Assembly (NCBI GenBank): GCA_015179125.1 | Contig: WHVA01000017.1 | Span: 1 to 64,000 of the forward strand | DNA length: 64,000 nucleotides | DNA from: Gautieria morchelliformis | Lineage: Eukaryota; Basidiomycota; Agaricomycetes; Gomphales; Gomphaceae | Reading direction: 5' to 3' | Shown here: positions 1 to 62,150 of the stretch, one piece after another | Numbering within the stretch: the first letter of the stretch is position 1 | How the letters are laid out: the number at the start of each line of letters is the position of its first letter | The notes under the pieces: generated by a model | What the model saw: the letters and a program-made list of their open reading frames with translations, nothing else | What the model was told of the DNA's origin: nothing | The model's database searches: none | Program-made: the position numbers and the translations under genes

Positions 1-345
1 GGGTTCCACAAGGGGGGGTTCTATCGTTGAGGAAGACAGGGTCGCCGACATAGTACGTGTTCTCCCGTCTGTGTTGGGGTCTGAGGATGCGAATGCAGGG
101 CGAGTGGGCGTCTGACTCTTTGCTGGTGTGAGGTCCTCAGAGCTGACGGACCACTTTGAAGACCATGCGATGTCGAGATCATGGCAGTCAAGCATCCTTT
201 GTAGCTTGGCTTCACTGGCTGCTCTGGATGACGAGAAGCCGGAGAAGTGCAGGAGGGTGGGATCGACACGTGACATGTTTGGCAGGTCAGAGAGGTTTTG
301 GGTGAAGCTGGGGAGGGCAACAAGCTCAATGGCAGGCGAGGACAT
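1..345 (-). CDS. Partial ORF running off the left edge, unrecognised
   Basis: An open minus-strand frame begins at an ATG at 345 and stays open for 115 codons to the window edge. The start reads MSSPAIELVALPSF, and the rest is rich in serine, proline and acidic residues. A TATA-like box lies about 60 bases upstream (404-412). It follows the chromodomain end of the family 1 gypsy on the same strand, so it may be an accessory ORF between pol and the 3' LTR, or the start of a neighbouring host gene. I recognise no domain. No other long frame in this stretch looks more protein-like, but the open length alone is weak evidence. Confidence 0.35.
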   Translation of the reverse strand, partial: MSSPAIELVALPSFTQNLSDLPNMSRVDPTLLHFSGFSSSRAASEAKLQRMLDCHDLDIAWSSKWSVSSEDLTPAKSQTPTRPAFASSDPNTDGRTRTMSATLSSSTIEPPLVEP

Positions 346-403
346 GGTTGATGGATGTGGTGGGATCGATGCAGTGGAAGCGAGCGGTCACAGGTGGAGA
401 GGG

Positions 404-412
404 GATATATAG
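404..412 (-). promoter_or_regulatory. TATA-like box before the left-edge ORF
   Basis: On the minus strand the sequence reads CTATATATCC about 60 bases before the ATG at 345. Spacing and sequence fit a fungal TATA box. Inference only. Confidence 0.3.
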
Positions 413-634
413 CTTATCGGAATGAATTGGTTAGGCGGAGGCCGATATCGCTTATCTTTGGGGTTCTGGACCCTTGACATTATGAGTAGAAGCCCTGCCT
501 GCTGTCCAGTCGAAGAGAGTTTGCCTGGAAGGTTCTGTGAAGTTCTGAAATCTCTGGAAGGGGAGGGACGTGTATGTGGCTGCTGAGATATGCTGAGGTG
601 CCTCTGGGCTTTGCCGGTGAAATTCCTTAATGAG

Positions 635-3600
635 TCACTTTGCCCCAGAGACATCTTTCGCTGGTAGCCAGAGATCATCAGCAGCTCCATAGCCCTTCCA
701 GCGCACGAGATACTCCAACCTTCCATGGAACATCCTGCTGTCTAGAATCCTTTCAACTTCATATTCTTCGGCTCCATCCCGTATGACAGGGGGTGGTGGT
801 GGAGGGGCATGACGTTCAAGAATTGGGTCATCTTCATATGGCCGAAGCAGGACGACAGAGAACACTGGATGTGTGCGACCAACGGATGCAGGAAGATTTA
901 GACCATAGGCATTTCATGAGACCACCTTATTAACAGTGTAGGGGCCTAGCCACTTGTGGTCTAGCTTCTTCATTGGGCAAGTGGCTGTGATGTTTTGTGC
1001 ATTGAGCCAGACCTTGTCACCAAGCTTATAAACTGGGGCTGCTTTATGGTGCACGTCATAGAAGTGTGCCATGTCCTCTGCTGCCTTGGACAGGGGTGAA
1101 CGAGCTTCTCTTGTGGCCGCTTCCATCCGCGTTGTGAACTCATCCAGGGCCTTGAGTCGAGTTTCCCAGACTGGTTCTAGTCCCAGCCGTGGATGTTGGC
1201 CACTGTCCAACATGAAGGGTGTAGTCTGGGTTGAGGCATGGATTCGGTTGTTATAGGCAAACTCGGCCAGGGATATCCATTCGAACCAATCATCCTGACA
1301 CTGGTTGATGAATAGTCGAAGGTATTGCTCAATCTCCTGATTAACCCTTTCAGTCTGTCCATCAGTTTGGGGGTGATAAGCAGTAGAGGCAGTGACTTTG
1401 ACACCAAGAAGTTTGTTCAGTTCACGCATCAACTGGGAGATGAACTGTGTGCCTCGATCACTGATGATTTCTTCAGGGAGCCCATGAAGTTTCCAAACAT
1501 GATCACGGAAGAGTCGGGCAACTCCCACTGAAGTTACATCTGAAGTGGTGGGAATGACATGTGCACACTTTGAGAGGCGATCGACGACGACAAGGAGAGC
1601 ATCATAGCCATGACTGGTAGGCAGTTCTACGATCAAGTCAACAGACATAACCTGCCATCTACGGTCTGGGATACGGTTTGGTAGAAGCTTGCCAATGGGA
1701 GAAGCAGGGAAGGCTTTTGTCCAGTTGCACAGGTCACAGGCCTTCACGTATTTTGCAATGTAACGTCCCATCCCAGGCCACCAGTAACTCTGAGCAACTA
1801 GTTCAGTGGTTCTCCAATGACCAGGGTGACCGGTGAGAGGCATGTCATGGTGCGCTTTCACTATGTCATGTCGTAGTTTTGCATCAAGCGGCATGTACAC
1901 TTTGTTGTGATAGAGGACAAGCCCATCCTGTTCAGACCACTCTTCTCCTCATAAATTTCCAGAGGAGCCCAGTTCTTTGAGAGCCTTGACAACCTTTTCA
2001 TCCCGGTCTACACAGTTCCTTACTCGATTGAGGAAAGCATCACCTTCACCTGGGACTAACTGTGCGCCAGTCTCTGGGGGATTCGCCTTGAACAAGTCAG
2101 GGGTAAGTAAGACTTGATTTTGGTTGTCTTCCTCCCCCCGCTTATGATCCACACGTTGTGAGAGTGCATCAGGCTTGGCTGAATGACGACCAGGACGATG
2201 GATCAGCTCAAAATCAAAGCGAGAGAGGTAGAGTGACCAGCGTGCTTGACGACGGTTCAGGTTTTGTGCAGTGTGGAAGTAGGTGAGATTATGATGGTCA
2301 TTGAGAATCTCAATCTTGTGCTTCGTTCCCTCTAAGATGTGGCGCCATTCCTCTAATCCCCGAATCACAGAAAGAAGCTCCTTGTCGACAAACCCCACAG
2401 GTCGCCATTTGCCATCATCACATAGCTGGGACAGTACTGCTCCTGTGGCATAGGCTGAGGCATCTGTTTCAAGATCGGAAATGTTTGTCTTGATCAGGGA
2501 GGACAAGGATTGGTGTTGAGGTGATGAGGAGTTTGAGCTTGTTGAAGGACGCTTGCTCTGGACCATTTGTATCCCAAGACCATTGGGCATCCTGTTTTGT
2601 CAACTGGTTGAGGGGCTTTGCAATGTGTGAGAAGTCGTCCACAAATCTATGGTAGAAGTTGATGAAACCAAGGAATGATTTGACTTCAGTGATGTTACGT
2701 GGTATTGGCCAGTCCTGCACCCCTGCAACCTTGACTGGGTCCATGGCAACCTGTCCTTGAGAGAGGATGAGGCCGAGATACTCCACCTCTAGTTGCTCAA
2801 ATAGGCATTTTTCAGGTTTGAGGTACAGGTTGTTGGCCCGGAGGATTTCAAGGACACGTCGTACAATCCTACGATGTTCTTCAAGCGACTCTGTGAAGAT
2901 GAGAATGTCGTCCATGAACACCACCACAACCCCTTCATCAATGAGACTCTTGAAGATGTCATTCATCATCGTCTGGAAGGTTGCTGGGCTGTTCGTGAGT
3001 CCAAAGAACATGACTAGAGGTTCATACAGGCCCCTATTTGTCCGAAAGGCTGCCTTCCACTCATCTCCCTCTTTTATGCGTACATTATTATATCCCCAGC
3101 AAATGTCAAGCTTTGTGAAGTATTTAGCCCTTCCAGCAGCAATCTTATTCATGATGTCTGGAACAAGGGGCAAAGGATAGGCATTCTTGATTGTCCGTCC
3201 TTTTTCTTCACAAAGAAGACTGGAGATGCCATAGGTGACTTGGAAGGACGGATACGATGGCTCTTCAGGTTCTCCTCAAGGAAGTTATCCAGTTCCCTTT
3301 GCTCAACTGGTGACATTGGGTAAACCTTTGTGCTGAAGGGTTGTGCACCTGGAGTGAGCTCAATTGCATGGTCCCAGGGCTTTCGAGGAGGCAGTTGGTC
3401 AAATGACTCCTTAGAAAACACATCCTTGAACTCCTGGTATGGTTTGGGGACAAGGTCCTCGAAGGATCTGACTGGTGCAGACTTGCTGGCCCATTTAGCA
3501 AGCTGTTGGGAGACAGTCCAGCCTGCGCCAATCATTTCAGGACTCTCATTCACAAAGATGACAAAGGTCCTGTCTCCTTCCTCAAGTAGGGAGCGGGTGT

Positions 3601-4324
3601 GCTGTATGGGAACCTCCTCTTGATCTACACTCTCTTCTGGAACAGTTTCGACTGTGGGCCCTCTGACAACAGGTCTGCCCCCACATGACTTGGGACAGCG
3701 TGTCATCTTCACATCTCCTGTACGCCAGTCAACTTCTGGGTTGTGTTCAACAAGCCATGTGTGACCAAGAATGATGGCAAGTCGTCCAAGGCTTGTGACA
3801 GAGAATGTGGCACGTTCCGTATGATCCCCAAAGGTGCAAATAAGGTCGACTTCTTCCTTGATTGAGCCAGCCTCATTTGGGGTACCATCAATATTGTAGA
3901 CAGGGATGGCACGGGGTAGGGGACGGGTCCAAAGTCTGTGTTCCCTTACAAACTCCACATCGATGAACATCCCTGTAGCACCACTGTCAAGGAGGGAGTC
4001 AATTGCAAGTGGATGCCCTGTGTCAATGGAGTGGACCTTGAGAGGTACTTTGGTGCATCGGCGGAGGTCAGCAGTACGGACATATAGAGGGACTGGAAGG
4101 TTTGCATTAGCAACTGGAGCGATGGGTTGGGTTTTTGGCATGGCTGGTTTGGTTTCAGTTCGATCAGGGGTAGGAGAAGGATGCATCATATTGCCTGTGA
4201 TCTCTATTGTACATGTTTCGAGAACTGAAAACCGATTCGTCGAGCGGGGCATGTCTTTCACTGCTGACCGGCCTAAAAACCCTTTCCTTCCTCTTGGACA
4301 GGGGCTTCCACCTTCTGTTCGCAT
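635..4324 (-). pseudogene. pol: Family 1 gypsy pol region (PR-RT-RH-IN-chromodomain)
   Basis: The minus strand encodes, in order, an aspartic protease (LLDSGATGMFIDVEF near 4000), reverse transcriptase with the FMDDILIF form of the active-site box near 2930, RNase H (TDASAYATGAVLSQL near 2440), integrase with the HHCC zinc segment (about 1740-1850), an SDRGTQF core (about 1455) and a GQTERVNQE segment (about 1330). A chromodomain (EYEVERILDSRMFHGRLEYL) lies at about 690-770. It belongs to the same clade as the whole element at 53975-60179. It is a broken fossil copy. Confidence 0.9.
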
Positions 4325-5379
4325 TCCTCCATTGCCGCTGCTACAGATTTAGAGACAATTGCTGCAATGTCTGCCTCTGTGAGGTTTGCACGGATTCGTG
4401 GCTTGCGAGGTTCAGGACAGTCTGGTGAAATGTGACCAGGTCTCTTACAGTTGTAGCAGGCCCATGTTTCGGTGCGGCGGCGGGATGAGTCAATGTCCAT
4501 AGGTGTCGCATTACTGGGTGGTGCTGTGACAACAGGAGCCGTAGCAGGAGTGTGGAGTGGTCGGGCAGGAGGAGGGCGATTAGGGACATGAGGTGTCTGT
4601 GCCTTCCTGACCTCTAACAGACGGCGATGATTGCGGTCAGTCTGACAGGCTGCTTCCTTCCAGGCTTTGAGGTTGGATGGAAGAAAGGGCTGGGCGTGGA
4701 TCTTGTCAAGGATACCTGCTGGAAGGCCACGAGCATAGGCATCCTCGAGTGCCTCATCATTAAAGCCTGTCCTGCCTGCCAGGATCTCAAATTGAGCCGT
4801 GTATTCATCTGCCAACATTCCTGACACCATCCTAAGGTCATGCAGCTTAGTGCGAGCTGTTCTGGCACGATCTGGGTCCCCAAAGGCCTCCTCCACACGT
4901 TTAATGAACCCCTCCAGAGTGGATATAGAGGAGGTGCCATCAATGACAGCCTGTGTCTTGTTGTGTGCCCATATCTCCACAGAGCCTCCCGTCATGAAGG
5001 AAAGAGCATATAGGATCTTTGTGCGCTCATCTGGGAAGGATGCTGGCTGGACAGCGATGGACAACTTGATAGACCTGATAAACCCTTCAGTTTCTGCACG
5101 GTCTCCATTGAACTTCTCCAGTTCTGCTGCTTTGATAGAGCGAGTAGATGGAGGGACACTGTGAGGTACTGAGGGCGCAAGGGCTTGAGCAGCAGCAACA
5201 GCAGCGTTGGTGGCAGCATTGGCTAAGTGGTCGTGAACGTTAACAATCTGATTGTGCAGTTCCTGATTCTGCAGTTGAAGTTGCTGCAGCTGCTGTGCTT
5301 GGCTGGAAAGGAGGCCTCGAAGAAATGGCCCATGTTCACCCAGGGAGTCCCAGTATGCGTCTGGGAGTTGGTTTGCCAT
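4273..5379 (-). CDS. gag: Family 1 gypsy Gag
   Basis: A 368-residue open frame that begins MANQLPDAYWDSLGEHG. It has an N-terminal glutamine/asparagine-rich coiled segment (about residues 20-60), the usual Ty3-type Gag core (FNGDRAETEGFIRSIK onward), and a CCHC zinc knuckle, CYNCKRPGHISPDC, near residue 310, which would bind the element's RNA. The ATG at 5379 lies about 60 bases inside the 5' LTR end, as expected for a first ORF. Its 3' end overlaps the protease region. Gag forms the particle shell of such elements; here it is part of a fossil copy. Confidence 0.85.
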   Translation of the reverse strand: MANQLPDAYWDSLGEHGPFLRGLLSSQAQQLQQLQLQNQELHNQIVNVHDHLANAATNAAVAAAQALAPSVPHSVPPSTRSIKAAELEKFNGDRAETEGFIRSIKLSIAVQPASFPDERTKILYALSFMTGGSVEIWAHNKTQAVIDGTSSISTLEGFIKRVEEAFGDPDRARTARTKLHDLRMVSGMLADEYTAQFEILAGRTGFNDEALEDAYARGLPAGILDKIHAQPFLPSNLKAWKEAACQTDRNHRRLLEVRKAQTPHVPNRPPPARPLHTPATAPVVTAPPSNATPMDIDSSRRRTETWACYNCKRPGHISPDCPEPRKPRIRANLTEADIAAIVSKSVAAAMEECEQKVEAPVQEEGKGF

Positions 5380-5427
5380 AGGCTGAGATGAAGGCTGGTT
5401 AAGAAAAGTGTGTGGGGTCGTCCTATG

Positions 5428-5437
5428 AGCTTGATCT
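5428..5437 (-). other. Self-priming primer-binding site of family 1
   Basis: On the minus strand the ten bases AGATCAAGCT begin three bases after the 5' LTR end. They are exactly complementary to AGCTTGATCT inside the LTR (5599-5608), which lies about 27 bases after a TATAAG box, i.e. where transcription should start. This is the geometry of Tf1/sushi self-priming, where the RNA 5' end folds back as primer. No tRNA-type TGG site is seen at this place. Confidence 0.7.
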
Positions 5438-5439
5438 TC

Positions 5440-7138
5440 TGTGAGGGCAACACTAATGACGAAGCCACAACCAAAAGATACTCAAGGAGATAAGAGCCAA
5501 TACTAGGACAATGACCAACTGTGTAGTGGGTATCCTCAGTTTATAACTCTACCAACGATAGATACATGGGGACTTGCCTGTGTAGTGGGTATCCTTAGAG
5601 ATCAAGCTGAGGAAATGCCACCACATGGGCTACATGTCAAGATTGGTTTTCAGGCGTTAATATCGTGTATTAGTGAACACAACGAATGCCCGAATAACTT
5701 GTGCGAATAAGTATGCCGTTCGGCGAATAAGTGAACCGATGAGTGTTCACGAAACAAAGGGGTTGCCCGAACGGGGCTCACCCTATCTACAGTCGTAGCG
5801 AAATAGCTCGCAGCACTCGACGATGTAACATGCAAGATACTGCGGAAGGGCTGTCTAAGTTTCGACGGTCCCTTCGCTGGCAAAGGTGCTCCTTAGGAGC
5901 CCTTTGCCAACAGCACAGAAAGTAGTTTGAAGGCTAAGGTAATGAAGACGAAGTATGAGAACTCACCAGTGATGCCTAAGTCCTTGGCTGGTCGAAGATA
6001 GAAATCTTCAAGGAGAGGCTCAAGACGATGATCACAGCGAGGTCAAGTTTGCACAAGATGGACGACATATGATAATTGAACTGGGGAATATACATGCGAA
6101 TGTAAACTACTTATATTGAATGCTCGTAAGGTAACAGCGAATAGGAAAGAGACTGTCACAAGTTGGGGTTGGATAGGGGTGCGCAGCCATGATACAACAT
6201 AGATGAAATAAACATACAATAGAAAGCGAGAAGAGGGAAAATATGAAACGACGGAGAGTAAAGGTGGCGAAGGCACTTATGGACAAAACCATGTCTTGGG
6301 ACCCACATACATGCTACCCTGCACGGACTCTTGGTCTACTGGGTTGATTCCGCACGGCCTATGGAGGGTGTGTCCTGCGAACATGCTTTGACCATACGAA
6401 CGCCCAATGGGGTTGGATTAAGAAGACGACGGGATTAATGATGAACCATCATGCTGGGTGAACAGTATCGATCGTGTTTTTGATGGTGTGCCTGCTGGTG
6501 AATGATGCGAGCAGCGAATATCCGTTCGGTGAAATGCAAGGAAGGGCAAAAAGGGGTGACATAGGGGAGGAGAGGTCGAGGTGGAGGGAGAAACCGAGCG
6601 AACACTGAGGAGGAGTAGCGAAAGGGAAAATGGGGGTACCAAGGTGCAGGAAATGCACAGGTCATGGCAACCCAACTATTCGAACACCATCGGAAGAGGG
6701 TCGAGCAGAGGAGGTGGTAGGCCCAGTGATGACTGCCGAATCAGTCCCAGGACGTCGATCGTGCATTTGGCGGCGTGGCTATGGTAGTTGGCGCAAACAG
6801 CGAGAGTTGGTTACCGAACATAACAATGGTGATCGGAACGAACACGAAGGTGGGGTGAGAAAATAGGAAAATTGAGCTTCTGAGTATGAGAGAAAAACGC
6901 GTCATGACACTACAGTCTTATAGCGCTGGCAAGGCTTATATAATAGGGAAGACGGAAACTTGTAGAAGGTTATGGAAGGTGACGGAAAGTGATGGAAGGT
7001 TGTGGAATGTGATGGAATGTGACAGAAGGTGACGGAAGGTGATAGAATGTGATGGAAGGTTATGGAAACTGACGGAAGGTGATGGAAACTCATGGAAGGA
7101 AATAGAAACTTGTGGAAGGAAACACGTGAACCCTGACA
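5440..7138 (-). repeat. 5' LTR of family 1 gypsy, split by a family A LTR
   Basis: Minus-strand reading starts TGTCAGGGTTCACG and ends GTTGCCCTCACA. Without the family A insert and its 5-bp duplication it is about 419 bp; the related LTR at 61442-61830 is 389 bp. The difference lies in the number of short units of the type ACCTTCCATC in the upstream half (6955-7115). A TATAAG box lies at 6917-6923. Confidence 0.9.
5635..6909 (+). repeat. Family A solo LTR in the family 1 LTR
   Basis: A 1275-bp TG...CA segment, TGTCAAGATTGG to GTCATGACA, flanked by the 5-bp duplication ctaca (5630-5634 and 6910-6914). Other copies of the same LTR are at 10217, 16551, 19095 and 49680. No internal region of this family occurs in the window. 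TATAAG-type boxes are found on the reverse strand, so the transcribed sense may be the opposite one (TGTCATGAC...CAATCTTGACA). Confidence 0.9.
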
Positions 7139-7833
7139 GTGAGGTATGAAAACTCACCAGTGATGCTTAAGTCTCCCTCTGGTCGAAGATAGAAGTCTAC
7201 AGGAGAGGCTCAAGATGATAGTCACAGCGAGGTCAAGTTTTTCACAAGATGGATGTATGATAATTGAACTGGGGAATATACATATTGAATGCTCGTATGA
7301 TATTAGCGAATAGGAAAGAGGCTGTCTGGAGTCAGGGTTGGATAGGGGTGCGCAGTCACGATACAAATAGACGAAACACAGATACAATAGAATGAGAGAG
7401 GAGTGTGAACATGAAATGACAGGAAGGAAAGGGGACGAAGGTATTTATGTACGAAAACACACCTTGGGACCTGCATATACGCCACCCTGCACCAATTCTT
7501 CGTCTGCTGGGTTGATCCCACACGACCTACAGGTAGGATGTCCTGCGAATGCATTCCGGCCATACAAACACCTAAAGGGGTTGGATTGGGAAGATGATGG
7601 GGCCAGTGATGAACCATCACGCCGGTAGAGGATGTTGATCATGTTTGATGGCATACCTGCTGACGAATGATGTGAGTAGTGAATGGTCATTCGGCGAATG
7701 GGGCAAAGTGCGAATGGAGCGAACATAGAGGAGGAGTGGTTGAAGGGTAGGGGGAACTCAGGCGAAGATGCAGGAAGAGTGATGAGGGGGAACATAGGGA
7801 CAGCGAGGTAAGGGAAATAGACGGGTCATGACA
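7139..7833 (+). repeat. Right half of a family A LTR
   Basis: Starts gtgaggtatgaaaactcacc directly after the family 1 LTR and ends GTCATGACA. It aligns to family A from the point where the fragment 61831-62150 stops, so the two are the exact flanks of one insertion with target duplication gtgag. Confidence 0.85.
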
Positions 7834-7844
7834 GTGAATAATGT

Positions 7845-10155: not shown

Positions 10156-10157
10156 GA

Positions 10158-49679: not shown

Positions 49680-51518
49680 TGTCAATATTGTTTTTTTAGG
49701 CGTTAATATCATGTATTAGTAAACACAGCGAATGCCCAAATAACTTGTGCGAAGAGGTATGGCTTTCAGTGAATAAGGTGAACGAATAAATGTTCAGAAG
49801 GTAAGAGGGCTGCCCGATCGGGGCTCACCCTATCTACAGTCATTGCAAAATAGCCCGTGGCACTCGACGGTATAACATGCGAGGTGTCACGAAAAGGTTG
49901 TCTAAGTAACAACAATCCTTTCGCCGGTGAAGGCACTCCTTCGGAGTCCTTCGCCGACAGCACAGATGATAGTTCGTTTTAGGAATAATATATCAGATAT
50001 ATCAGAACAGATATATTTGATGACTCAGGGAGTTGGGACTCTTCGTGCACCCCTGTGCACAGTATATGCACGAGCTGACTAAGCTCTGTGGAGCGAGTCG
50101 TCACTGATTGATGTAGGTCACGTGACCGAGTCGAGGAAGAAACAGGTGAGAACAGAGGAACAAGGGGTCCGAAGCTTTCGCTTTTGGAACAGTATAGTGT
50201 AGCCAGTTATAGTAGACTCTCAACAAAGATTTGGAATAAACTATCAAGATCTGAGCTCTGTAGCTATCAAACAAGACTACAGCAATTTCAGGAGGCAGAA
50301 TAATCGATTCTGGATGATATTCTGGATATTTGGTTCGTACATTTATGGTAGCTACTTATACTAAAATAGTAGTGAGTACCAGTGTTCAAGATAGTGAGTG
50401 AATGGGTCAGGATAATGTGGAAATGCTCCACAGGCTGCATACAGCTGTGGAGCAGGAACAGTGATGGGGATACTTGTCCTACTGACAAGTATCTAAGCTG
50501 GGACCTTGGGGCAATGTACAAAGCCCCTTTCAACATGTAATACAGCTCGTAATCAGTGGAGCTGGTCAGGGGAATAGAATAGAAAAGAAATCATGTGTGT
50601 CCTGTGCTGTGTGCCGACAGCAGCCTTGGCAAGGCATTTGCCATCTCTGTACCTCTCTCCTGAGGTAGCTATTCAGTACGTCCATAGATAGGACAGTGTA
50701 CTGCAATCTCCATCGTGTCCAATGTCCCTGTATGGGTCTATTAGTCCCATAGCAATATTTATTCTGACCAGGGCCCAGGTGCCTGCTTTCCAGGGCAGGC
50801 ACTGCTACTGGTGCATGGATTATTTCTCCAGATGTTAGCTCAGTTAGACGATTGTGTAGACCTTAGAATACTCTGTGAGATAGCTATCTCATTTATTCTA
50901 ACAGTTCGAAGGCTAAAGTAACGAAGGTGAAGTACAAAAACTCACCAGTGGTGCTTAAGTCTTCCTCTGATCGAAGATAGGAATCTACAGGAGAGGGCTC
51001 AAGACGGTGATCACAGTGAGGTCAAGTTTGCACAAGATGGACATATGATAATTGAACTGAGGAATATACATGCGAATGTAAACTACTTATATTGAATGCT
51101 CGTATGGTAACAGCGAATAGGAAAGAGGCCATTGTGCGTCAGGGTTGGATAGGGGTGTGCAGTCATGATACAAATAGATGAAATAAACATACAATAGAAT
51201 GGAAGAGGAGTGCGAACATGAAACGATGGAGAGGAAGGGGGCAAAGGCACCTATGTACAAAAACACGCCTTGGGACCTGCATATACACCACCCTGCACGG
51301 ACTCTTTGTCTGCTGGGTTGATCCCACATGACCTATGAGTCGGAGGTCCCGCGAACGCATCCTGCTCATTGAACACCTAAAGGGGTTGTATCGAGAAGCT
51401 GATGGAGCCAGTGATGGACCATCACGCCGGGTAGAGGATGTCGATCGTGTTTGATGACATGCCTGCTGGCAAATGATGCGAGCAGTGAATGGTCGTTTGG
51501 TGAATGCGGCGAAGGGCG
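49680..51518 (+). repeat. Family A LTR, split by repeat T and cut by copia
   Basis: Starts TGTCAATATTG; parts 49680-49976 and 50904-51518. It stops at GAAGGGCG, where the copia LTR begins; its right end is not in the window. Confidence 0.8.
49977..50903 (+). repeat. Family T repeat, probable solo LTR
   Basis: 927 bp, TTTTAGGAATAAT to ATTATTCTAACA-type end, with duplication gttcg (49972-49976, 50904-50908). The ends are imperfect inverted repeats (TTAGGAATAA/TTAGAATAAA). It shows the state without the hAT-like element found in the copy at 11642. Confidence 0.75.
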
Positions 51519-52081
51519 TGTAAGAATATATGAACTATACGATAACACTCAGTAGATGCTTCGATGCAAAGTACTAATAATATTTTACCTATATGATAAC
51601 ACTACAAGCGTATAGGTGAGCTAAAGTGAATGTGAGACCAATAATGTGTTTCTTACCTCAGTAGATGCTTCGATGCAAAGTACTAATAATATTTTACCTA
51701 TATGATAACACTACAAGCGTATAGGTGAGCTAAAGTGAATGTGAGACCAATAATGTGTTTCTTACCTCAGTAGATGCTTCGATGCAAAGTACTAATAATA
51801 TTTTACCTATATGATAACACTACAAGCGTATAGGTGAGCTAAAGTGAATGTGAGACCAATAATGTGTTTCTTACCTCAGTAGATGCTTCGATGCAAAGTA
51901 CTGAGGCAGAGTACAGAAGATACTAGCTACTTATAGTTCTTGGAGGACAATGAGAATTATACTACAATAGGGACATCAGGACAAAAGAAAATATAGAACA
52001 ATGAAGCTGCGCATGCTTTGTCACAATGGGGTGACACGGGGTGACGCGGTTTGCTATTGTGCTTACACGTTCACTCCTACA
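51519..52081 (-). repeat. 3' LTR of the copia element
   Basis: 563 bp; plus strand TGTAAGAATATATG to CACTCCTACA. TATAAG box on the minus strand near 51930. Holds the 109-bp tandem repeats. Confidence 0.85.
51548..51900 (-). repeat. 109-bp tandem repeat, three full units
   Basis: Units start at 51548, 51657 and 51766, plus a partial one at 51875 (CTCAGTAGATGCTTCG). By eye the three are identical. On the minus strand each unit has the shape of a 26-base exon (TACTTTGCATCG...CTGAG) followed by GTAAGA...ATTATTAG (83 bases). Confidence 0.9.
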
Positions 52082-52105
52082 CTCCCCCTCAAACCATAGT
52101 CAGCC

Positions 52106-53974
52106 CTAGTTGAAAAGTTGTTCAGTTAGTGACTGGAGCCATAAGGCCTCTTTCGCGGCGTGAGCAGCAGCTACGTATTCACTTTCCGTCGTGGACAGGG
52201 ACACAATCGACTGACGCTTTGCACTCCAGGATACGGCTCCGCCGTTTATGATGAACGCGTATCCTGAGATTGCATGTCTGTCTTCGGCCATACTGCCATC
52301 AGCATCGGCGTATCCGATCAATTCATTCTTTGTATGTCCATAAGTCAACCATAGGTTCATAGAGCCTTTTAGGTACTAAAAGATTCGTTTAACAGCACTC
52401 CAGTGACCAGGGGCGAACTTGGTCGAATACCTGGACACGGCTTGTACAGCGAAGGCGATGTCAGGGTGGGTTCCTAGGGCGGCATACATGAGCGATCCAA
52501 CAGCTTCCCTATAAGGTATGTCTTGCATTTTAGCCCATTTGGCCATGGTTTTAGGCGTTGGTGACATGGAGAGGAGTAGGCCATGGTCCATCGGCATAGA
52601 TACAGGTTTGAGATCTTCGAAATTATACCTTCATATAATTGACTCTATGTAGGACCGCTGTGAAAGATGTATGGTTCGTCTCTCTCTGTCCCGTTTGATT
52701 TCGATGCCTAATAGCCAATGCAGCTCGCCGAGGTCAGTGATTTCAACATGCTTCGAAATTCCAACTTTGAATTGCTTTACCGCCATCTCTGACGTTGCAG
52801 CAATAGTGCAATCGTCGACATGTACCAGGACGATGGTGAGCGCATTGTTTGTGCGTTGAAAGAAAACGGCCTGATCTACGTCACAGCAGGAGAAGAGTAA
52901 CTTGGTGAGCATAATGTCAACAAGTTTTTGGTACCAACGACGACCCGACTGCTTTAACCCATTCAACGTCTTTTGCAGGAGACAGACCTTTCCTGAGGAG
53001 CTTGGCGCAGGGTACCCTGGTGGTTGAGACATGTAAATAGTTTCTTTGTCGGTGAGTTCTCCGTTTAGGTACGCGCCCTTAATATCGATCTGATGGAGCT
53101 CCATGTCGTTCGCAGTGGCCAGTGCTAGCACGGTGCATATTGATGCCAACTTTGCAACTGGAGCAAAGGTGTCGAAGTAATCGACGCCAGGAACTTGTGA
53201 GAAACCTTGCGCGACGAGTCGTGCTTTGTATCACACAACGTTCCCAGCAGCGTCCTTCTTAGCTCGAAACACCCATTTGGATCCGACAATGTTCACGCTG
53301 CTTGGAGCATCAGTGAGTCTCCAGGTACCAGCCTCACGGAGCACAGCTAACTCCTCATGTATGGCGGACTCCCATAGGTGCCAGTTGGGCCGACATTTTG
53401 CTTCGGCCAAGGTTCGAGGTTCGATAGCCTCGACCTCGCTGGTTTCAGCTACGAGTAGGTACCCATCGACTTCATCGGCTACCATCATCCAGTTGGCTGT
53501 CCCTTCTCCTTCCAGCATCTCCGGCGCTTTTTCGATGATGGAAGGCATCTGTACTCCTGTCGGGATGACAGGATCAGATGATCGGTGAGAGGATGCTCCA
53601 TGTCCATCGAGGATATCTCGAACGCGCTGACTGGGCTTTCGCAGACGTTTGGCAGGTGCCTCAGCATAGGATTCGGACTGTGGTTCACTGGTGTGGGACA
53701 CAGACGGCGCAGTAGGTATGGGTGCGTCGGAGGAGAGGGCTTTGGTTACTGGTGCGTTAGTTTCCGTCTCGATTATTTGCCAATTCTCCCCCTCGAGGTG
53801 AGAAACTGATGTGGTACTGTTGTCGAAGTGGACATTGCGTTCCACTGTGACGGTTTTCTTTTCTGGCCAGTAAATGCGGACACCCTTACTTCGTTCATCG
53901 ATACCCATCCAGCGCCCTTCCTTTACTCTTCCACCGAGCTTGTCACCACCTTCCGTGTGTACCCAGACCTTTTC
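52106..53974 (-). pseudogene. pol: Copia reverse transcriptase and RNase H region
   Basis: Minus strand shows SKWVFRAKKDAAGNVV (about 53280), ELHQIDIKGAYLNGEL (about 53100), VHVDDCTIAA, the active-site box (about 52825), LGIEIKRDRERRTIHLSQ (about 52710), YRDLVGSLMY-type and DIAFAVQAVSRYS (about 52450), and RNase H with GYADADGSMAEDRHAISGY (about 52310) and STTESEYVAAAHAAKEALWL (about 52190). Typical Ty1/copia order. Part of a broken copy. Confidence 0.88.
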
Positions 53975-54436
53975 TGTCAGGGGACACCCTGTTTTCCATT
54001 TCCAGTTCCGACTCCATTTCCGACTCCGCTTCCGGTTCCAATTCCATCTCCGCATCCGCTCCCGGGAACGATTCCGCTTCTGGGAGAACTTCCACCAGTT
54101 CCATTCGCCTTGCCAGTTCCACTCCAATTTCCGACTTCCGCCCCGGAACAGTGTCGGAAATCAAGCGACTCGCATAATAGGTGGCATCAAGGGTCGATCA
54201 AGGGTCAGGGGGATGCAGGGTTGATGGCGGGTGCCAAGTGTTGTCCCTGGCTGCGCAGCGTAGTATAATACGGGCTCGCTGACATTGGGGGTCCTTAGAC
54301 TTTTCTCTTTGGATTTCCCCTTGTCAGGTGAGAATCCCCTCTCTTGTATGCTCTGTTCATTTATACATACTTTGGATTTCCCCTTGTCAGTTGTGTGGTA
54401 GTGTGATCTCCACAACTAGCCAGGGTTGCCCTTACA
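53975..54436 (+). repeat. 5' LTR of family B gypsy
   Basis: 462 bp, TGTCAGGGGACACC to GGGTTGCCCTTACA. The first 130 bases are TTCCG-type units. A TATAATA box is at 54264-54270 and the presumed start segment AGACTTTTCT at 54297-54306. A 28-base stretch around TTTGGATTTCCCC occurs twice (about 54309 and 54371). Confidence 0.95.
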
Positions 54437-54438
54437 GT

Positions 54439-54448
54439 AGAAAAGTCT
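54439..54448 (+). other. Self-priming primer-binding site of family B
   Basis: AGAAAAGTCT begins three bases after the LTR and is exactly complementary to AGACTTTTCT (54297-54306), 27 bases after the TATAATA box. Confidence 0.75.
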
Positions 54449-54623
54449 CTCCCATAGAGGACCGGCGGTCGTACTGCGTGTCGCAGCCGCCATAGGTGCG
54501 TTCGGAATCGGAGACAGCGACTCGGAGATCGCAACCTCTTCCGCACACACAGCGTACGACAGCCCTTCTTCTTACGTCGAGCTCCCAACCCTGGAAATCC
54601 CGTCCCACATTTCTCCTTCCGAC

Positions 54624-55799
54624 ATGGATCCGGACGATCGTCTTCGGAATATGGAGGAGGAATTGACGCGGAACCGGATGAAGACCGACGCGATTGAAAC
54701 AGCCTTACAAGCGATTTTGGCTAAGTTAGATATTCCCCAAGGTGGTGGAAATGAAATGTTGGATGATCCGGATTTCGGAAAAGCGGAACTAGCGGAGGAG
54801 AGAAAGTCCGCGAAGTTAGCAAAGGTCAAACCCGCAACTCCGGCGGACTTTGACGGAGATCGGGAGAAGGGACGCGCATTCTTCAACACATGCAGCATCT
54901 ACTTCGCAATTGTCGGAGACCTCTTTCCGAACGACCAGGCTCGGATTCACTGGGCATTGTCCTTTTTCAAGTCGGACCGCGCATCCCGTTTTGCAAACAA
55001 GGTGATCCGACATGAAGCAAAGGGCAAGGGGAACTACTTCCGAGACTGGGACGCCTTCGAGAAAACATTTTCCGACCAGTTCTGCCCAAAAAATGAGCAG
55101 CTCGCAGCCCTTACGAAGCTTGAGGGGACCAGCTGGTACCAGGCCGAGGATCCGGTCGATGACTATATCGATCGCTTCCAGGAGCTCATCGACCTTGCGG
55201 AGTATGATGACGACAAGACGATCGTCATCAAATTCCGACGAGGACTCGATCCGACACTCCAGAACCAAGTTGCGCTGCTTGGGGATGGAGCTCCGGACTT
55301 TGATGACCCGGAAGGGTGGTACCAAGCTGCACAGAGGGTGTCCCGGAACAGGGAAGCAAATGAGGCCTTCGTGGAGACGAGCCGGAATATGACGCGCAGT
55401 TCCACTCGTCCTACTCCACCTGTGCCAAAATCCAGAAGCGCATTCATTCCCATGCGGAAAGTATTTCCGACGCTTTCTCCGCCCACTCCTATTAGGAACC
55501 ATAGCCCTCCTCCCTCGAAGAGTGGCCCTGCCCCGATGGATGTTGACCGCATGCGCGGAAAAGGCCGCGGAACTATCACCTGCTTCCGATGTCAACAACC
55601 AGGCCACTATGCCCGCGAGTGCCCCCAAGCATTTGACATCCGGCTTATGACCACAGAGGAGAAACTCGAGCTCCTTCCAGAGTTCCTCGCACTTGCGGAC
55701 ATAAGCAGAGTGCCTACTGCGGAAGGAGTTTCCGAAAATGCGGAACATGGCTCATCGGAAGCGGAAGATGCGTCGGATTTTGTGACGCGCAGCGGGTGA
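54624..55799 (+). CDS. gag: Family B gypsy Gag
   Basis: 391 residues, starting MDPDDRLRNMEEELTRNRMK. An N-terminal coiled coil (residues 1-35) is followed by the Ty3-type Gag core (PADFDGDREKGRAFFNTCSI, residues 73-92; FSDQFCPKNEQ, about 149; YIDRFQELIDLAEY, about 180), a linker, and one CCHC knuckle CFRCQQPGHYAREC near residue 320. Gag forms the particle and packs the RNA. The ATG at 54624 is about 190 bases after the 5' LTR. Its stop overlaps the start of pol, which is in another frame; chromoviruses commonly use frameshifting there. Confidence 0.93.
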   Translation: MDPDDRLRNMEEELTRNRMKTDAIETALQAILAKLDIPQGGGNEMLDDPDFGKAELAEERKSAKLAKVKPATPADFDGDREKGRAFFNTCSIYFAIVGDLFPNDQARIHWALSFFKSDRASRFANKVIRHEAKGKGNYFRDWDAFEKTFSDQFCPKNEQLAALTKLEGTSWYQAEDPVDDYIDRFQELIDLAEYDDDKTIVIKFRRGLDPTLQNQVALLGDGAPDFDDPEGWYQAAQRVSRNREANEAFVETSRNMTRSSTRPTPPVPKSRSAFIPMRKVFPTLSPPTPIRNHSPPPSKSGPAPMDVDRMRGKGRGTITCFRCQQPGHYARECPQAFDIRLMTTEEKLELLPEFLALADISRVPTAEGVSENAEHGSSEAEDASDFVTRSG

Positions 55800-58700
55800 G
55801 ATGTGTGCCCCTGCTGCCTGTACATAACCGGTTTGCCTGTCTTGAAGTAGAGAATGAAAAGCCCCGACTCCCCTCACTTCATACAGACCCACCGGATAAA
55901 GTCACACAAAAGCCAAATCCGACACCTCGTCTATCCCGCATCCGCCCTTGGGAGAGACGCCTTCCGAAGCGCTATGTCGTTGCTGCCACCCCTGGCCCCA
56001 AGTCACTAGTCATTAAGGTAGAGATCCAGACGACAGATACGGCGGAAGTCAAATCCGGACCCGCCCTTGTCGATTGCGGGGCCACTGGTCAGTTTATGGA
56101 CCGGGACTATGTGGAACGGAACCGACTGACGACGCGGAAGTTGCAACGTGCAATCCCGGTGTTCAATGTGGATGGAAGCCCCAATGAGGCAGGGTCCATC
56201 ACGGAGATAGTGGACACAATTCTCCGCTACGATGGACACTCGGAACGCACTTCCTTCGCTGTCACCAGCCTGGGGAAGCAAGACATCATCCTTGGGTTTA
56301 CCTGGCTTCAAGAGCACAACCCGGAGATCAATTGGCAGACTCGGAAGGTACTGATGAGTCGATGTCCAGCCAAGTGTCACATGTGCCGGTCGGAAGCGCG
56401 GAAGGAGCACCAGGAGCAGCGGAAGACCGAACGGCTCATACAGACATGTCGTTCCGGCCCCCATCCACTGCTTGCAGAAGAAGACTCGGAAGCGGAATTT
56501 GAACCGGATCCCACTTCCAATTCCGATTCCGATTCCGATTCCGACGTCATCCGACTCGGCCTGGAAGACGCTCTGACGGAAGGGGAGCGCTTGCTGTACG
56601 TAAACCTTCCGCCGGAGGCGGAACACATCCGCGCCACCGGAAATATTTCGCAACGCCTTGCTGAAGCCTCTAAGAGGTATGATAGAGTGGAGGCGGAAAT
56701 TCCGGAGTACCTGCGGGAGTTTGAGGACGTCTTCTCCAAAGAGTCGTTTGATGCCCTGCCTCCGCGGAAACTGTGGGACCATGCCGTCGAGTTGGAGCCT
56801 GGGTCGAAGCCCACCAACTGCAAGGTCTACCCGCTGTCACCCAAGGAGCAGGTAGAGCTCGATGCATTCCTTGCGGAAAATCTCCGTACAGGGAGGATCC
56901 GCCCCTCCAAGTCACCCATGGCATCTCCGGTGTTCTTCATCAAGAAGAAGGACGGCTCGCTCAGACTTGTGCAGGATTACCGGGCCTTGAATGCGATCAC
57001 GATCAAGAACCGGTACCCCATTCCGCTCATTTCCGAATTGATCACACAACTCCGCGGGGCGAAGTACTTCACCAAGCTGGATGTCCGCTGGGGCTTCAAT
57101 AATGTCCGGATCCGGGAGGGAGATGAGTGGAAGGCCGCATTCCGCACCAACCGAGGACTCTTTGAGCCACAGGTCATGTTCTTTGGCCTCACCAACAGTC
57201 CTGCCACGTTCCAGACAATGATGAATGACATTTTCCGTGACATGATAGCAGAAGGGGTTGTCTGCGTCTACCTCGATGACATCCTCATCTTCACAAAAAC
57301 AATGTCCGAACATCGGGAAGTCGTGCGGAGAGTGCTGGAACGACTCCGGGAGTACAACCTGTGTCTCAAGCCGGAAAAGTGCGAATTTGAGCGGACGCGG
57401 ATAGAGTATCTTGGGGTGATCGTGTCGGAAGGAAAGGTGGAAATGGACCCCGTCAAGGTTTCCGGTGTGTCGGATTGGCCGGTGCCGCGGAACAAGAAGG
57501 AAGTCCAGTCCTTCATTGGGTTTGTCAATTTCTACCGGCGGTTCATCAAGGACTTCTCCTGCCACGCCCGTGCCCTCTTCGACCTCACCAAGAAGGAGGT
57601 TGAATGGCGGTGGGGAGAGCCGGAACGGGCCTCCTTTGACAAACTCAAAGAGCTGATCACTTCCACCCCGGTCCTGATCTTTCCCGACGACTCTCGCCCT
57701 TACCGAGTGGAGGCGGATTCTTCCGACGCAGCTACCGGAGCGGTCTTGTCGCAACAGTCATCGGAAGAAGGTGGGGGGTGGCATCCGATTGCCTTCTTCT
57801 CTAAGAGTCTCAGTCCGGTCGAGCGGAACTACGAGATCCATGACAAGGAGATGCTGGCAATCATCCGAGCGCTGGAAGAGTGGCGACACTTCCTCGAGGG
57901 TGCTCTATGCCCTTTTGAGATCTGGACAGACCACAAGAACCTCGAGTATTTCCGCACGTCTAAGAAGCTGAACCGACGACAAGCACGGTGGTCCCTACAC
58001 CTGTCCCGGTTTGACTTCATGCTCCACCACCGCCCCGGCCGCACCATGGGCAAGCCCGATGCCCTATCCCGCCGCGCGGATCACGGAAGCGGAAGTGGAG
58101 ACAACGCGGATATGACACTGCTCCGCCCAAGTCTCTTTGCAATCCGTGCCCTAGAAGGAGTAACTGCAGTTGGGGCGGAAGCGGAAATGCTCCGGGATAT
58201 CCGGAGGCAGTACCGGAATGGAGAGAAGGAGGAGTCGGTGGTGAAGGCAGTGGAGGAACTCCGGAAAGGGCACTCACGGTCTGTACGGGCAGCGGAATGG
58301 TCGGAACGTGATGGACTGCTCCACTTCAGAGGCAAGGTCTATGTTCCGGGTGGGGCGGACCTCCGCCGTCGCATCGTGTCCCAGCACCATGACACACGGG
58401 TCGCTGGGCATGCTGGCAGGTGGAAGACGCTGGAGTTAGTGGCTCGGAATTACTGGTGGCCTCAGATGTCCCGCTACATCGGACAGTACGTGAAGACGTG
58501 TGACCTTTGTCTCCGAACCAAAGCGCAACGACGTCCGCCCGTCGGAGAACTTGTTCCGCTCCCGATTCCCGAATCCCGCTGGGACACCATCAGTGTCGAC
58601 TTCATCGTTGAACTCCCAGAGTCTCATGGCTACGACGCGATCATGAACGTCGTGGATTCGGTGAGCAAGGTGTCCCACTTCATTCCGACGCACACGACGA

Positions 58701-59920
58701 TCACAGCCCTCGGAGCGGCCCGCCTGTTCCTTGCACATGTCTGGAAGTTGCATGGGCTCCCGAAGCAAGTCGTTTCCGACCGAGGTCCGCAGTTTGTCGC
58801 GGAACTGACTCGGGAGCTCTACCGCCTGCTCGGCATAAGGCTGGCTACCACCACAGCGTACCATCCGCAGGGTGACGGACAGACGGAACGGGTCAATCAG
58901 GAGTTGGAGCAATATCTCCGCCTCTTTGTCAACGAGAGGCAGGATGACTGGGATGAGTTACTTCCGCTGGCGGAATTCCAATACAACAACCATGTCCATT
59001 CCGCCACGCAACAGACTCCCTTCATGCTTGACTCCGGACGACACCCGCGGATGGGCTTCGAACCACGCCAGGCTGACTCCCGACTCGAGACAGTCAATGA
59101 GTTCCGAGACCGCATGGACTCCACCCTTTCGGAAGCCAAGTCGGCCCTTGCGAAGGCCAAGGATGACATGGCAAGGTACTACAACCGACGCCGGGTTCCT
59201 GCCCCAGAGTACCAAGTTGGAGACAAGGTGTACCTAGATGCAAGTGACATCCGCACCACACGCCCTTCGCAGAAGCTTGCCCACCGCTACCTTGGGCCCT
59301 TCACAGTGACGCGGAGGGTTGGACGGAATGCATACCGCCTCCGACTTCCGATGTCCATGTCCCGCCTCCACCCCGTCTTCAACGTGGTGAAGTTACTCCC
59401 TATGCTTGAGGACCCGATTCCACGTCGGAAGGCTCATCCGCCACCTCCACCAGAAATTGTAGATGGGGAAGAGCACTACGTGGTGGAACGGATCCTGGAC
59501 AGCCGGTTTGTGCGAGGACGACTCCAATTCCTCGTGAAATGGGAAGGGTATGGGTACGAGGAGAATTCGTGGGTCCCGGAGCAAGATGTTTCCGCTCCTG
59601 ACAAACTCCGGGAGTTCTATAGGACACATCCAGGTGCCCCTCGCCGAATCCGCTCGCTGGCATTTCAATCCCTTGTGTCCCGTGCCTCGAGGACGCAGCA
59701 CGCTAGAGGGGGGGTGATGTCAGGGGACACCCTGTTTTCCATTTCCAGTTCCGACTCCATTTCCGACTCCGCTTCCGGTTCCGATTCCATCTCCGCATCC
59801 GCTCCCGGGAACGATTCCGCTTCTGGGAGAACTTCCACCAGTTCCATTCGCCTTGCCAGTTCCACTCCAATTTCCGACTTCCGCCCCGGAACAGTGTCGG
59901 AAATCAAGCGACTCGCATAA
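55796..59920 (+). CDS. pol: Family B gypsy Pol polyprotein
   Basis: About 1374 codons in the frame -1 to gag. Domains by rough residue: protease ALVDCGATGQF (about 90), reverse transcriptase LVQDYRALNAITIKNRYPIP (about 390) with the VYLDDILIF active-site box (about 491), RNase H EADSSDAATGAVLSQ (637) and TDHKNLEYF (711), integrase zinc segment HHDTRVAGHAGRWKT (863), core start VDFIVELPESHGYDAIMN (931), SDRGPQFV (993), GQTERVNQELEQYLR (1026), and chromodomain HYVVERILDSRFVRGRLQFL (1226). The frame does not stop before the 3' LTR. It reads through the purine tract and about 200 bases of the LTR, giving a serine/aspartate-rich tail (SGDTLFSISSSDSISDSASG onward). No ATG is needed if it is made as a Gag-Pol fusion; the first codon in the overlap is GTG. 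It is the best-preserved gene of the window. Confidence 0.93.
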   Translation: MRCVPLLPVHNRFACLEVENEKPRLPSLHTDPPDKVTQKPNPTPRLSRIRPWERRLPKRYVVAATPGPKSLVIKVEIQTTDTAEVKSGPALVDCGATGQFMDRDYVERNRLTTRKLQRAIPVFNVDGSPNEAGSITEIVDTILRYDGHSERTSFAVTSLGKQDIILGFTWLQEHNPEINWQTRKVLMSRCPAKCHMCRSEARKEHQEQRKTERLIQTCRSGPHPLLAEEDSEAEFEPDPTSNSDSDSDSDVIRLGLEDALTEGERLLYVNLPPEAEHIRATGNISQRLAEASKRYDRVEAEIPEYLREFEDVFSKESFDALPPRKLWDHAVELEPGSKPTNCKVYPLSPKEQVELDAFLAENLRTGRIRPSKSPMASPVFFIKKKDGSLRLVQDYRALNAITIKNRYPIPLISELITQLRGAKYFTKLDVRWGFNNVRIREGDEWKAAFRTNRGLFEPQVMFFGLTNSPATFQTMMNDIFRDMIAEGVVCVYLDDILIFTKTMSEHREVVRRVLERLREYNLCLKPEKCEFERTRIEYLGVIVSEGKVEMDPVKVSGVSDWPVPRNKKEVQSFIGFVNFYRRFIKDFSCHARALFDLTKKEVEWRWGEPERASFDKLKELITSTPVLIFPDDSRPYRVEADSSDAATGAVLSQQSSEEGGGWHPIAFFSKSLSPVERNYEIHDKEMLAIIRALEEWRHFLEGALCPFEIWTDHKNLEYFRTSKKLNRRQARWSLHLSRFDFMLHHRPGRTMGKPDALSRRADHGSGSGDNADMTLLRPSLFAIRALEGVTAVGAEAEMLRDIRRQYRNGEKEESVVKAVEELRKGHSRSVRAAEWSERDGLLHFRGKVYVPGGADLRRRIVSQHHDTRVAGHAGRWKTLELVARNYWWPQMSRYIGQYVKTCDLCLRTKAQRRPPVGELVPLPIPESRWDTISVDFIVELPESHGYDAIMNVVDSVSKVSHFIPTHTTITALGAARLFLAHVWKLHGLPKQVVSDRGPQFVAELTRELYRLLGIRLATTTAYHPQGDGQTERVNQELEQYLRLFVNERQDDWDELLPLAEFQYNNHVHSATQQTPFMLDSGRHPRMGFEPRQADSRLETVNEFRDRMDSTLSEAKSALAKAKDDMARYYNRRRVPAPEYQVGDKVYLDASDIRTTRPSQKLAHRYLGPFTVTRRVGRNAYRLRLPMSMSRLHPVFNVVKLLPMLEDPIPRRKAHPPPPPEIVDGEEHYVVERILDSRFVRGRLQFLVKWEGYGYEENSWVPEQDVSAPDKLREFYRTHPGAPRRIRSLAFQSLVSRASRTQHARGGVMSGDTLFSISSSDSISDSASGSDSISASAPGNDSASGRTSTSSIRLASSTPISDFRPGTVSEIKRLA
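59704..59717 (+). other. Polypurine tract of family B gypsy
   Basis: TAGAGGGGGGGTGA directly before the 3' LTR; the plus-strand primer site. The family 1 element has GAGAGGGGGTGA at the same place (before 61442). Confidence 0.8.
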
Positions 59921-60179
59921 TAGGTGGCATCAAGGGTCGATCAAGGGTCAGGGGGATGCAGGGTTGATGGCGGGTGCCAAGTGTTGTCCCTGGCTGCGCA
60001 GCGTAGTATAATACGGGCTCGCTGACATTGGGGGTCCTTAGACTTTTCTCTTTGGATTTCCCCTTGTCAGGTGAGAATCCCCTCTCTTGTATGCTCTGTT
60101 CATTTATACATACTTTGGATTTCCCCTTGTCAGTTGTGTGGTAGTGTGATCTCCACAACTAGCCAGGGTTGCCCTTACA
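59718..60179 (+). repeat. 3' LTR of family B gypsy
   Basis: 462 bp, almost identical to the 5' LTR. The last 67 codons of pol lie inside it. Confidence 0.95.
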
Positions 60180-60184
60180 TTTTC

Positions 60185-60688
60185 ACCCCACTCGCGTACA
60201 TGCTTAAGGTCAGGTTTCTCTCCAAAAGCAGCTTCATGTGGAGTTTTATCGCTGACCGCCTTTGTTGAGGTTCTATTCATCAACCATACGACATGCCGAG
60301 CAGCTTCTCCCCACAGGAGCCTGGGGAGTCCACTGGCATGCAGTAGGGCTCGGACTCGCTTGACAATCGTACGATTGCGACGCTCAGTGACACCATTCTG
60401 TTGTGGAGTATCATGCACCGTGTGTTTTTGTGCCATTCCTTTGGATTTTAAATAACCAGCAAATCCTTGTCCTAGGTATTCGCCTCCTCGGTCTGAGTGG
60501 AGCTTCTTGATAGAAGTGCCGAGTTGGGTGGCAACGCAAGAGTCATACTCTTTATATGCTTCTAGCACCTCGTCCTTGGTGCGTAGAAGGTATAGGTGGG
60601 TTAATCACGACATGTCATCAGTGAAGGTAATGTAATATCTTTTTCTGGCTTTTGTTGCGACTGGTGCTGGTCCCCATAGGTCACTATG
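60185..60688 (-). pseudogene. Copia integrase region
   Basis: Minus strand reads HSDLWGPAPVATKARKRYY at the left of the D LTR (60688 down), then YKEYDSCVATQLGTSIKKLH, SDRGGEYLGQGF, HDTPQQNGVTERRNRTIV and LWGEAARHVVWLMNRT (to about 60245). This is the catalytic core of a Ty1/copia integrase with its D, D and E surroundings. The zinc-binding start of the domain is missing. Confidence 0.85.
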
Positions 60689-61176
60689 TGTTAGCAACTT
60701 GGGGTTATGGCAGGGAAGGTTTGGTAGAGTTCTTAGAATGCTAGAATCAAATACACTCTCTCAGTGAATTTATTGTCACTGGTATATTAATACAATACCT
60801 AGAATCAAATACACTACATGATTTTCAATCAACATGCTTTGTAAATATGAAAGATACTACTCGCCTCTCTCAGTGAATTTATTGTCACTGGGAGAGGAGT
60901 ATTATTCTGTCTCAGAATGCATATACGTGCACCCGGCCCTTTAGCGCCCAAGAGCTCGGGCGTCGAAGTCATTTCAAACTCCGCTGGGTGCAGCCGCCTG
61001 TGAAAATAGAGATAACAAAATGAAATGGAGAGATAGGGAGTGACTGGAAAATTTCGAAAATAATCAGAGAAGTGAGTGCATGGTACAAGAACAATGTGAG
61101 AAGAGATTGAAACACCACACAATAAATCGAACATATTATGCTTGATTTTGGTGCAGGAGCATAAATGCACCCAACA
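60689..61176 (-). repeat. Family D LTR with unmatched flanks
   Basis: 488 bp, on the plus strand TGTTAGCAAC to GCACCCAACA, closely like the copy at 43569-44057. Left flank is ctatg (60684-60688, copia), right flank acccc (61177-61181, family 1 gypsy): no duplication, unlike the other D copy. It marks a recombination junction. Confidence 0.85.
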
Positions 61177-61441
61177 ACCCCCTACACTTTCGAAGGCTGG
61201 GTGAGGCGGCGTTTCCGTAACATGGCAGGAGAGCGAATACGTCGAGCAAGGTTCCGAGGGCCGCACTTGCCCATGGACCCCAATCCTCCTGAGCTCATCA
61301 TTGACCTGCACTACCAGGAAGGGAAGGGCCAGGAGAGATGGTGGTCCCACCTGTGGCATACTTGGAAACGATGTCTTGGTAGATGTTGGGGGCTAGGTGG
61401 CAGCTGTGCTTGTCGGGATGACAAGCATTGAGAGGGGGTGA
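61177..61441 (+). other. 3' terminal internal piece of a family 1 gypsy
   Basis: Ends with the purine tract GAGAGGGGGTGA before the LTR. A short arginine-rich frame (FEGWVRRRFRNMAGERIRRA) is open in the plus strand to 61431; it could be the end of an accessory ORF. No chromodomain is included. Confidence 0.6.
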
Positions 61442-61830
61442 TGTCAGGGTTCACGTGTTTCCTTCCACAAGTTTCTATTTCCTTCCATGAGTTTCCATCA
61501 CCTTCCGTCAGTTTCCATAACCTTCCATCACATTCTATCACCTTCCATCACCTTCTGTCACATTCCGTCACCTTCCATAACCTTCTACAAGTTTCCGTCT
61601 TCCCTATTATGTAAGCCTTGCCAGCACTATAAGACTGTAGCCCATGTGGTGGCGTTTCCTCAGCTTGATCTCTAAGGATACCCACTACACAGGCAAGTCC
61701 CCATGTATCTATCGTTGGTAGAGTTATAAACTGAGGATACCCACTACACAGTTGGTCATTGTCCTAGTATCGGCTCTTATCTCCTTGAGTATCTTTTGGT
61801 TGTGGCTTCGTCATTAGTGTTGCCCTCACA
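61442..61830 (+). repeat. 3' LTR of a family 1 gypsy
   Basis: 389 bp, TGTCAGGGTTCACG to GTTGCCCTCACA, with CCTTCCATCA-type short repeats in the first half and a TATAAG box near 61630. Followed by ctcac, the reverse of the gtgag that follows the family 1 LTR at 7138. Confidence 0.9.
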
Positions 61831-62150
61831 CTCACCTTCGTTACCTTAGCTTTCAAACTATTATCTGTGCTGTTGGCGAAGGGCTCCAAAGGAGCACCTT
61901 TGCCGGTGAAAGGATTGTTGCTACTTAAACAACCTTTCCATGTCACCTTGCACGTTACATCATCAAGTGCCACGGGCTATTTCGCTACGACTGTAGATAG
62001 GGCGAGCCCTGATCAGGCAGCCCTCTTATCTTCTGAACATTTATTGGTTCACCCTATTCGCCGAACGGCACACTTATTCGCACAAGTTATTTGGGTATTC
62101 GCTGTGTTCACTAATACACGATATTAATGCCTAAAAACCAATCTTGACAT
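61831..62150 (-). repeat. Left half of a family A LTR
   Basis: The reverse strand starts TGTCAAGATTGG (62150) and stops at GGTAACGAAGGTGAG (61831), exactly where the fragment 7139-7833 begins. Confidence 0.85.

Follow-up and report, generated by a model that had tools for sequence, protein, structure and literature searches.

A gypsy insertion apparently divided at a family C long terminal repeat in Gautieria morchelliformis: a probable inversion, with an assembly join as a possible alternative

Results and discussion

The first 64,000 bases of the 497,040-bp contig C193 (WHVA01000017.1) of the basidiomycete Gautieria morchelliformis (assembly GCA_015179125.1, 122 Mb in 1113 contigs), referred to here as the window, are a nest of long terminal repeat (LTR) elements. 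One Ty3/gypsy insertion (family 1) lies in two halves at opposite ends of this window. The break between them falls at an LTR of another family, C, whose two flanks belong to two different insertions. A real inversion, via homologous recombination between inverted family C LTRs, is the probable explanation; that the contig shows the order of the chromosome, and that recombination was the cause, is inferred.

The comparisons below are based on lists of matches in which 40 places were scored, of 840 first-look candidates for family 1, of 4306 for the LTR family A and of 2758 for family C (265 gypsy and 39 copia bases were part of the last query). Domain calls are Pfam matches. A tRNA scan found none.

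The two halves of the gypsy insertion

The family 1 LTRs at 5440-7138 and 61442-61830 are opposite in orientation and 98.71% identical (384/389 aligned bases), with one further 30-bp length difference. Seven other family 1 copies, drawn from 40 other listed matches, are 95.4-97.2% identical to either of them. The gag, RNase H and integrase domains are read leftward from 5481 to 917, with a protease match just under the cut-off, and a purine tract lies directly before 61442. Domain order and purine tract together therefore identify 5440-7138 as the 5′ LTR and 61442-61830 as the 3′ LTR, in agreement with the initial annotation of this sequence, which had also noted their opposite orientation. 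By the criteria tested (gag, RNase H before integrase, LTRs running from TG to CA and a 5-bp duplication) family 1 is Ty3/gypsy.

The target duplication GTGAG is found at 7139-7143 and, reversed, at 61831-61835, and beyond each copy is one half of an A LTR. The two A halves abut: when aligned to 29 other A copies, the right half begins at its base 1, 2 or 6, in register with where the left half stops, in 28 of them and at its base 31 in the remaining one (L013). This alignment bears out the earlier claim that the halves meet. Their outer flanks, GTGGA and GTGAA, are equal in four of five bases, as expected of an old duplication. The 5′ half (1-7138, minus strand) and the 3′ half (61177-61830, plus strand) are thus one gypsy insertion, antisense in an A LTR, and the proposal of a single insertion cut in two is upheld.

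The same picture could also arise if the gypsy had inserted twice, independently, at one position shared by two A copies and a different half had later been lost from each, as family 1 and A are both abundant. However, the equal GTGAG, the complementary A halves, the four-base agreement of the A flanks and a shared break at ACCC (see below) would then all be due to chance, the window LTRs are closer to each other than to any of the seven other copies, and a search of the assembly gave no second copy of the junctions. The junction of A, GTGAG and LTR has a single exact match in the assembly, which is the window. Another 25 places match it with two to three mismatches; only that on C136 has GTGAG, and no A sequence adjoins it. 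Two separate insertions are so improbable that they can be given almost no weight.

A 10-base stretch at window positions 5428-5437, two bases past the gypsy 5′ LTR, is complementary to the element's own LTR (61442-61830), where a reversed control gave at most 7 bases. The chromodomain gypsy that lies further along the window has such a stretch at 54439-54448, also two bases past its 5′ LTR and complementary to its own LTR (53975-54436). These stretches resemble those of Tf1-type self-priming elements, and it is possible that in both gypsy families the primer site pairs with the element's own transcript.

The junction LTR and its exchanged flanks

The edge at 61,176 had been placed correctly by the initial annotation, and it is the end of the family C LTR. 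This junction LTR is 488 bp long and runs on the plus strand from TGTTAG to CCCAACA. The ACCCC that flanks it on the right stems from a C insertion in the gypsy (C1), and the CATAG on the left from a second C insertion (C2) in a copia element, D. Each edge is unique in the assembly at up to three mismatches. A simple nested C insertion at 60689-61176 is ruled out by the unmatched flanks, and a break in the gypsy as such is ruled out because the edge is an exact LTR end and four gypsy bases are common to both halves.

The gypsy 3′ part to the right of the junction LTR begins ACCCCCTACAC, the 5′ part at window position 1 ends GTGGAACCC, and an unbroken gypsy copy on C285 reads GTGGAACTCCCTACAC at the same place. 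From this comparison, both gypsy halves stop at the single insertion site of C1, with ACCC common to both. If the duplication has the usual five bases, the contig would start one base short of the C element.

For comparison 29 other C loci were fetched, which are the best matches to the window copy and not a random sample; 23 are solo LTRs and six are ends of full-length elements, one of these (L067) having been classed by eye as a 3′ LTR. The flanks of the 23 solo LTRs are equal at all five bases in 17, at four in three and at just two in three. The last group (L047, L064 and L065) are candidates for further exchanges.

Among 31 copies compared (L055, aligned in the wrong orientation, is left out), from which the junction LTR differs by 2-8%, the nearest is the C2 5′ LTR on contig C408 at 98.1%, followed by one at 97.4%, with gaps ignored; the copy on contig C764 is at 96.5% despite being the same locus as that on C408, due to indels. 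The closeness to C2 speaks for the proposed recombination. The C2 5′ LTR (L072, C408:5320-5696) lacks, beside a short direct repeat, around 110 bp that the window C LTR keeps, and C LTRs therefore exist in two lengths. By the criteria tested family C is Ty1/copia, as C408 carries Retrotran_gag_2, then rve, then RVT_2 on separate open pieces; this element is itself switched (see below), so its copia domains may derive from two C copies.

Copia D and its continuation on other contigs

The integrase of D is cut at 60688, exactly at the start of the junction LTR, and the six copies at 94-96% identity all keep matching as far as that base. Copy C176 supplied the sequence of D beyond the cut, which was then searched for (of 85 candidates, 40 places were scored). 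The site is crossed by nine copies at ≥90%, and two, on C408 and C764, break off two bases after CATAG, as would be expected of a C LTR starting with TG. Some distant D copies (72-79%) also end their alignment near the same base, so it is the sequence of C408 and C764 that establishes the break there: both read CATAG and then TGTTGGG, which is the C LTR in the expected orientation, with a copia gag beyond. The ends of C408 and C764 overlap by 5.95 kb at 99.8%, and 11 of the 13 differences are single-base indels; the two are thus one locus.

Two further insertions connect the window to C764. The D 5′ LTR on C764 is 98.4% identical over 316 bases to the 3′ LTR in the window, compared with 88% over 347 for C176, and the outer flanks of D, CACCC and CGCCC, are equal in four of five bases. 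The A LTR that hosts D is preceded in the window by ATAAC, before 49680, and the same ATAAC follows its remainder on C764. Three ends of this A LTR on C764 were possible and the one with ATAAC was chosen, as two window A copies align to it by their own last base; a third, shorter window A copy aligns its end elsewhere on C764. From CATAG, the D LTR pair and ATAAC it follows that 60688, C2 and C764 were once continuous.

Within the D 3′ LTR, 51548-51902 is a perfect tandem of 3 x 109 bp, and the partner LTR on C764 is without two of the units. The features of the window and their coordinates are collected in Table 1.

Table 1. Elements and junctions annotated in the window, in order of position
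Feature	Position	Strand	Remarks
Gypsy internal region, 5′ part (gag, RNase H, integrase)	1..5439	-	Pfam; reaches the contig's first base; end coincides with start of 3′ part by alignment to C285
Gypsy 5′ LTR, 419 bp, interrupted by solo A LTR	5440..7138	-	98.71% to 61442-61830, insertion omitted
Solo A LTR (long form), 1275 bp, in gypsy 5′ LTR	5635..6909	+	CTACA both sides
Gypsy target duplication GTGAG, copy 1	7139..7143	+	
Right half of gypsy-hit A LTR	7144..7833	+	29 A copies aligned; GTGAA beyond it, 7834-7838
Intact solo C LTR, comparison copy	43569..44057	+	ACGTA both sides
Left part of A LTR cut by copia D	49680..51518	+	About 940 inner bases not matching A; flank ATAAC; right part on C764, ends with ATAAC
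Copia D 3′ LTR, with 3 x 109 bp tandem	51519..52081	-	Partner 5′ LTR on C764
Copia D internal region, downstream piece	52082..53974	-	52112-53969 93.9% to C176; SH3-like polyprotein domain
Complete chromodomain gypsy inserted in D	53975..60179	+	LTRs 99.78% over 462 bases; TTTTC both sides
Copia D integrase piece, cut at C2 insertion	60180..60688	-	Flank CTATG (reverse complement CATAG); six copies
C-family LTR with unmatched flanks, rearrangement junction	60689..61176	-	Minus strand: GGGGT before, CATAG after
Gypsy internal region, 3′ part, ACCCC to purine tract	61177..61441	+	Alignment to C285
Gypsy 3′ LTR, 389 bp	61442..61830	+	Family 1 matches
Gypsy target duplication GTGAG, copy 2	61831..61835	-	
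Left half of gypsy-hit A LTR	61836..62149	-	Outer flank GTGGA (reverse complement of 62150-62154); aligned to 29 A copies

The older order and how it may have changed

Read from these nested insertions, the older order was the reverse complement of 61177 onward, then C1, then 1-60688, then C2 and C764; in the contig 1-60688 is followed by one C LTR and then by 61177. The flanks fix the orientation of C1, by way of the gypsy 3′ part, and that of C2, by way of the two halves of D; in this reconstructed order the two elements are inverted relative to each other. Each of the two chains consists of three nested insertions, the duplications of which match across the break in four or five bases, and at the C1 site four bases match and the contig ends there. 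The probability of a random five-base match is 1/1024 and that of a match in at least four of five bases about 1.6%, so chance is no serious candidate.

In the proposed scheme the gypsy inserted in an A LTR and was later hit by C1, with C2, a second C element that has an internal region, lying about 60.7 kb away in copia D in the opposite orientation. Homologous recombination between a C1 LTR and the C2 3′ LTR would then have inverted the segment 1-60688, and the single LTR remaining at 60689-61176 would carry a flank of each insertion. At the other end a full-length chimeric C element, not crossed by the assembly, would be expected, and a failure to cross it would explain why the contig starts at window position 1. 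The predicted full-length-C junction coincides with the start of C193 and lies near the end of C764; the assembled junction needs the crossing of the 488-bp LTR alone. Both points favour a real inversion. The initial annotation had proposed an inversion of more than 54 kb with a breakpoint inside the gypsy. Inversion stands as the formal explanation, but the breaks are in family C LTRs, one in the gypsy and one in the copia, and 54 kb is the distance between the gypsy halves, the inverted segment being about 60.7 kb (1-60688).

A wrong join in the assembly, which had rightly been named as an alternative, would give the same contig if the chromosome keeps the older order and the C LTR led the assembler out of C2 and into C1; the right-hand 436 kb would then be attached to the 60.7-kb piece at the wrong end. 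Four findings would fit such an error: the contig begins, at window position 1, no more than 1 bp from where a repeat ends; the LTR at the junction belongs to a high-copy family; C408 carries a further switch within C2; and an assembly-wide search gave no second allele for the right flank (which matched the window alone) or for the junction edges (at up to three mismatches). On the other hand, the joined repeat is one LTR of 488 bp, 2-8% off the 31 copies, which is short for an apparent long-read assembly, and six other window insertions with both ends defined keep matching flanks (CTACA, CTCTG, ACCAC, CCAAA, ACGTA and TTTTC). There is no N in 258,156 fetched bases, and this, together with the indel-type differences in the overlap, suggests long reads. 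A wrong join is regarded as a credible explanation, though not the probable one.

Several observations weigh against a real inversion. No change of parentage is seen along the length of the junction LTR in the 31-copy comparison. The reciprocal junction, with the gypsy 5′ part beside either end of a C LTR, is absent from the assembly at up to three mismatches, although a gap is possible as the contig stops at this very place. The read type is itself inferred. In addition, C408 goes from C2 into a C LTR followed by GACAA and not by CATAG, this LTR matching that of the C2 5′ end at 90% over 315 bases and at 95% over 93; C408, which overlaps C764, is thus switched as well, by a second event or by misassembly.

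The arrangement in C408 could point to a complex exchange among at least three C elements (C1, C2 and a third, C3, flanked by GACAA), such as an inversion followed by a translocation, as it joins the C2 5′ LTR (CATAG) to another C LTR (GACAA), and three of the 23 solo C LTRs have unmatched flanks. This rests on one contig, however, the 5.95-kb overlap of which with C764 resembles an unresolved branch, and such an exchange is considered highly unlikely.

At C408:9928-12661 (L075) the GACAA-flanked C LTR adjoins opposite-strand sequence that by eye resembles the reverse transcriptase of a long interspersed nuclear element (LINE). Pfam gave nothing in two pieces of this stretch, and a LINE-type endonuclease domain is found further on.

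Relation to known rearrangements and significance

LTR-linked inversion, the reading preferred here, is a rearrangement of a type already known. Recombination between elements can leave behind solo LTRs whose flanks do not match; the junction LTR is like these in being a single LTR with two different 5-bp flanks, and unlike them in that both missing partners have been identified.

In primates, inversions mediated by recombination between retrotransposons (human and chimpanzee L1 and Alu) have been described: inverted copies of one element are found at both breakpoints, the breakpoint elements are chimeric, their target duplications are mismatched, and matching duplications reveal the older order (PMC2603318). 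The window shares with these cases inverted elements of one family (C) at the breakpoints and exchanged target duplications (GGGGT and CATAG), both partners of which were located (CATAG on C764 and C408, ACCC at window position 1). It differs from them in that the repeat is an LTR with 5-bp duplications, that nested insertions in a single genome are the source of the older order, and that the reciprocal breakpoint is unassembled, so the assembly contains one of the two junctions.

A bolder proposal, put forward tentatively and which we ourselves find rather doubtful, is that a real inversion took place here recently, may still be segregating, and is one visible instance of exchanges through the C LTR that shuffle the genome widely (three of 23 sampled solo LTRs being unmatched).

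With nested target duplications alone, an older order of the chromosome can be reconstructed over several contigs from a single genome, and the locus marks the exact place of either an LTR-driven inversion or an assembly error. If the unmatched flanks of C LTRs are real exchanges, LTR recombination would be a notable source of rearrangement in this genome.

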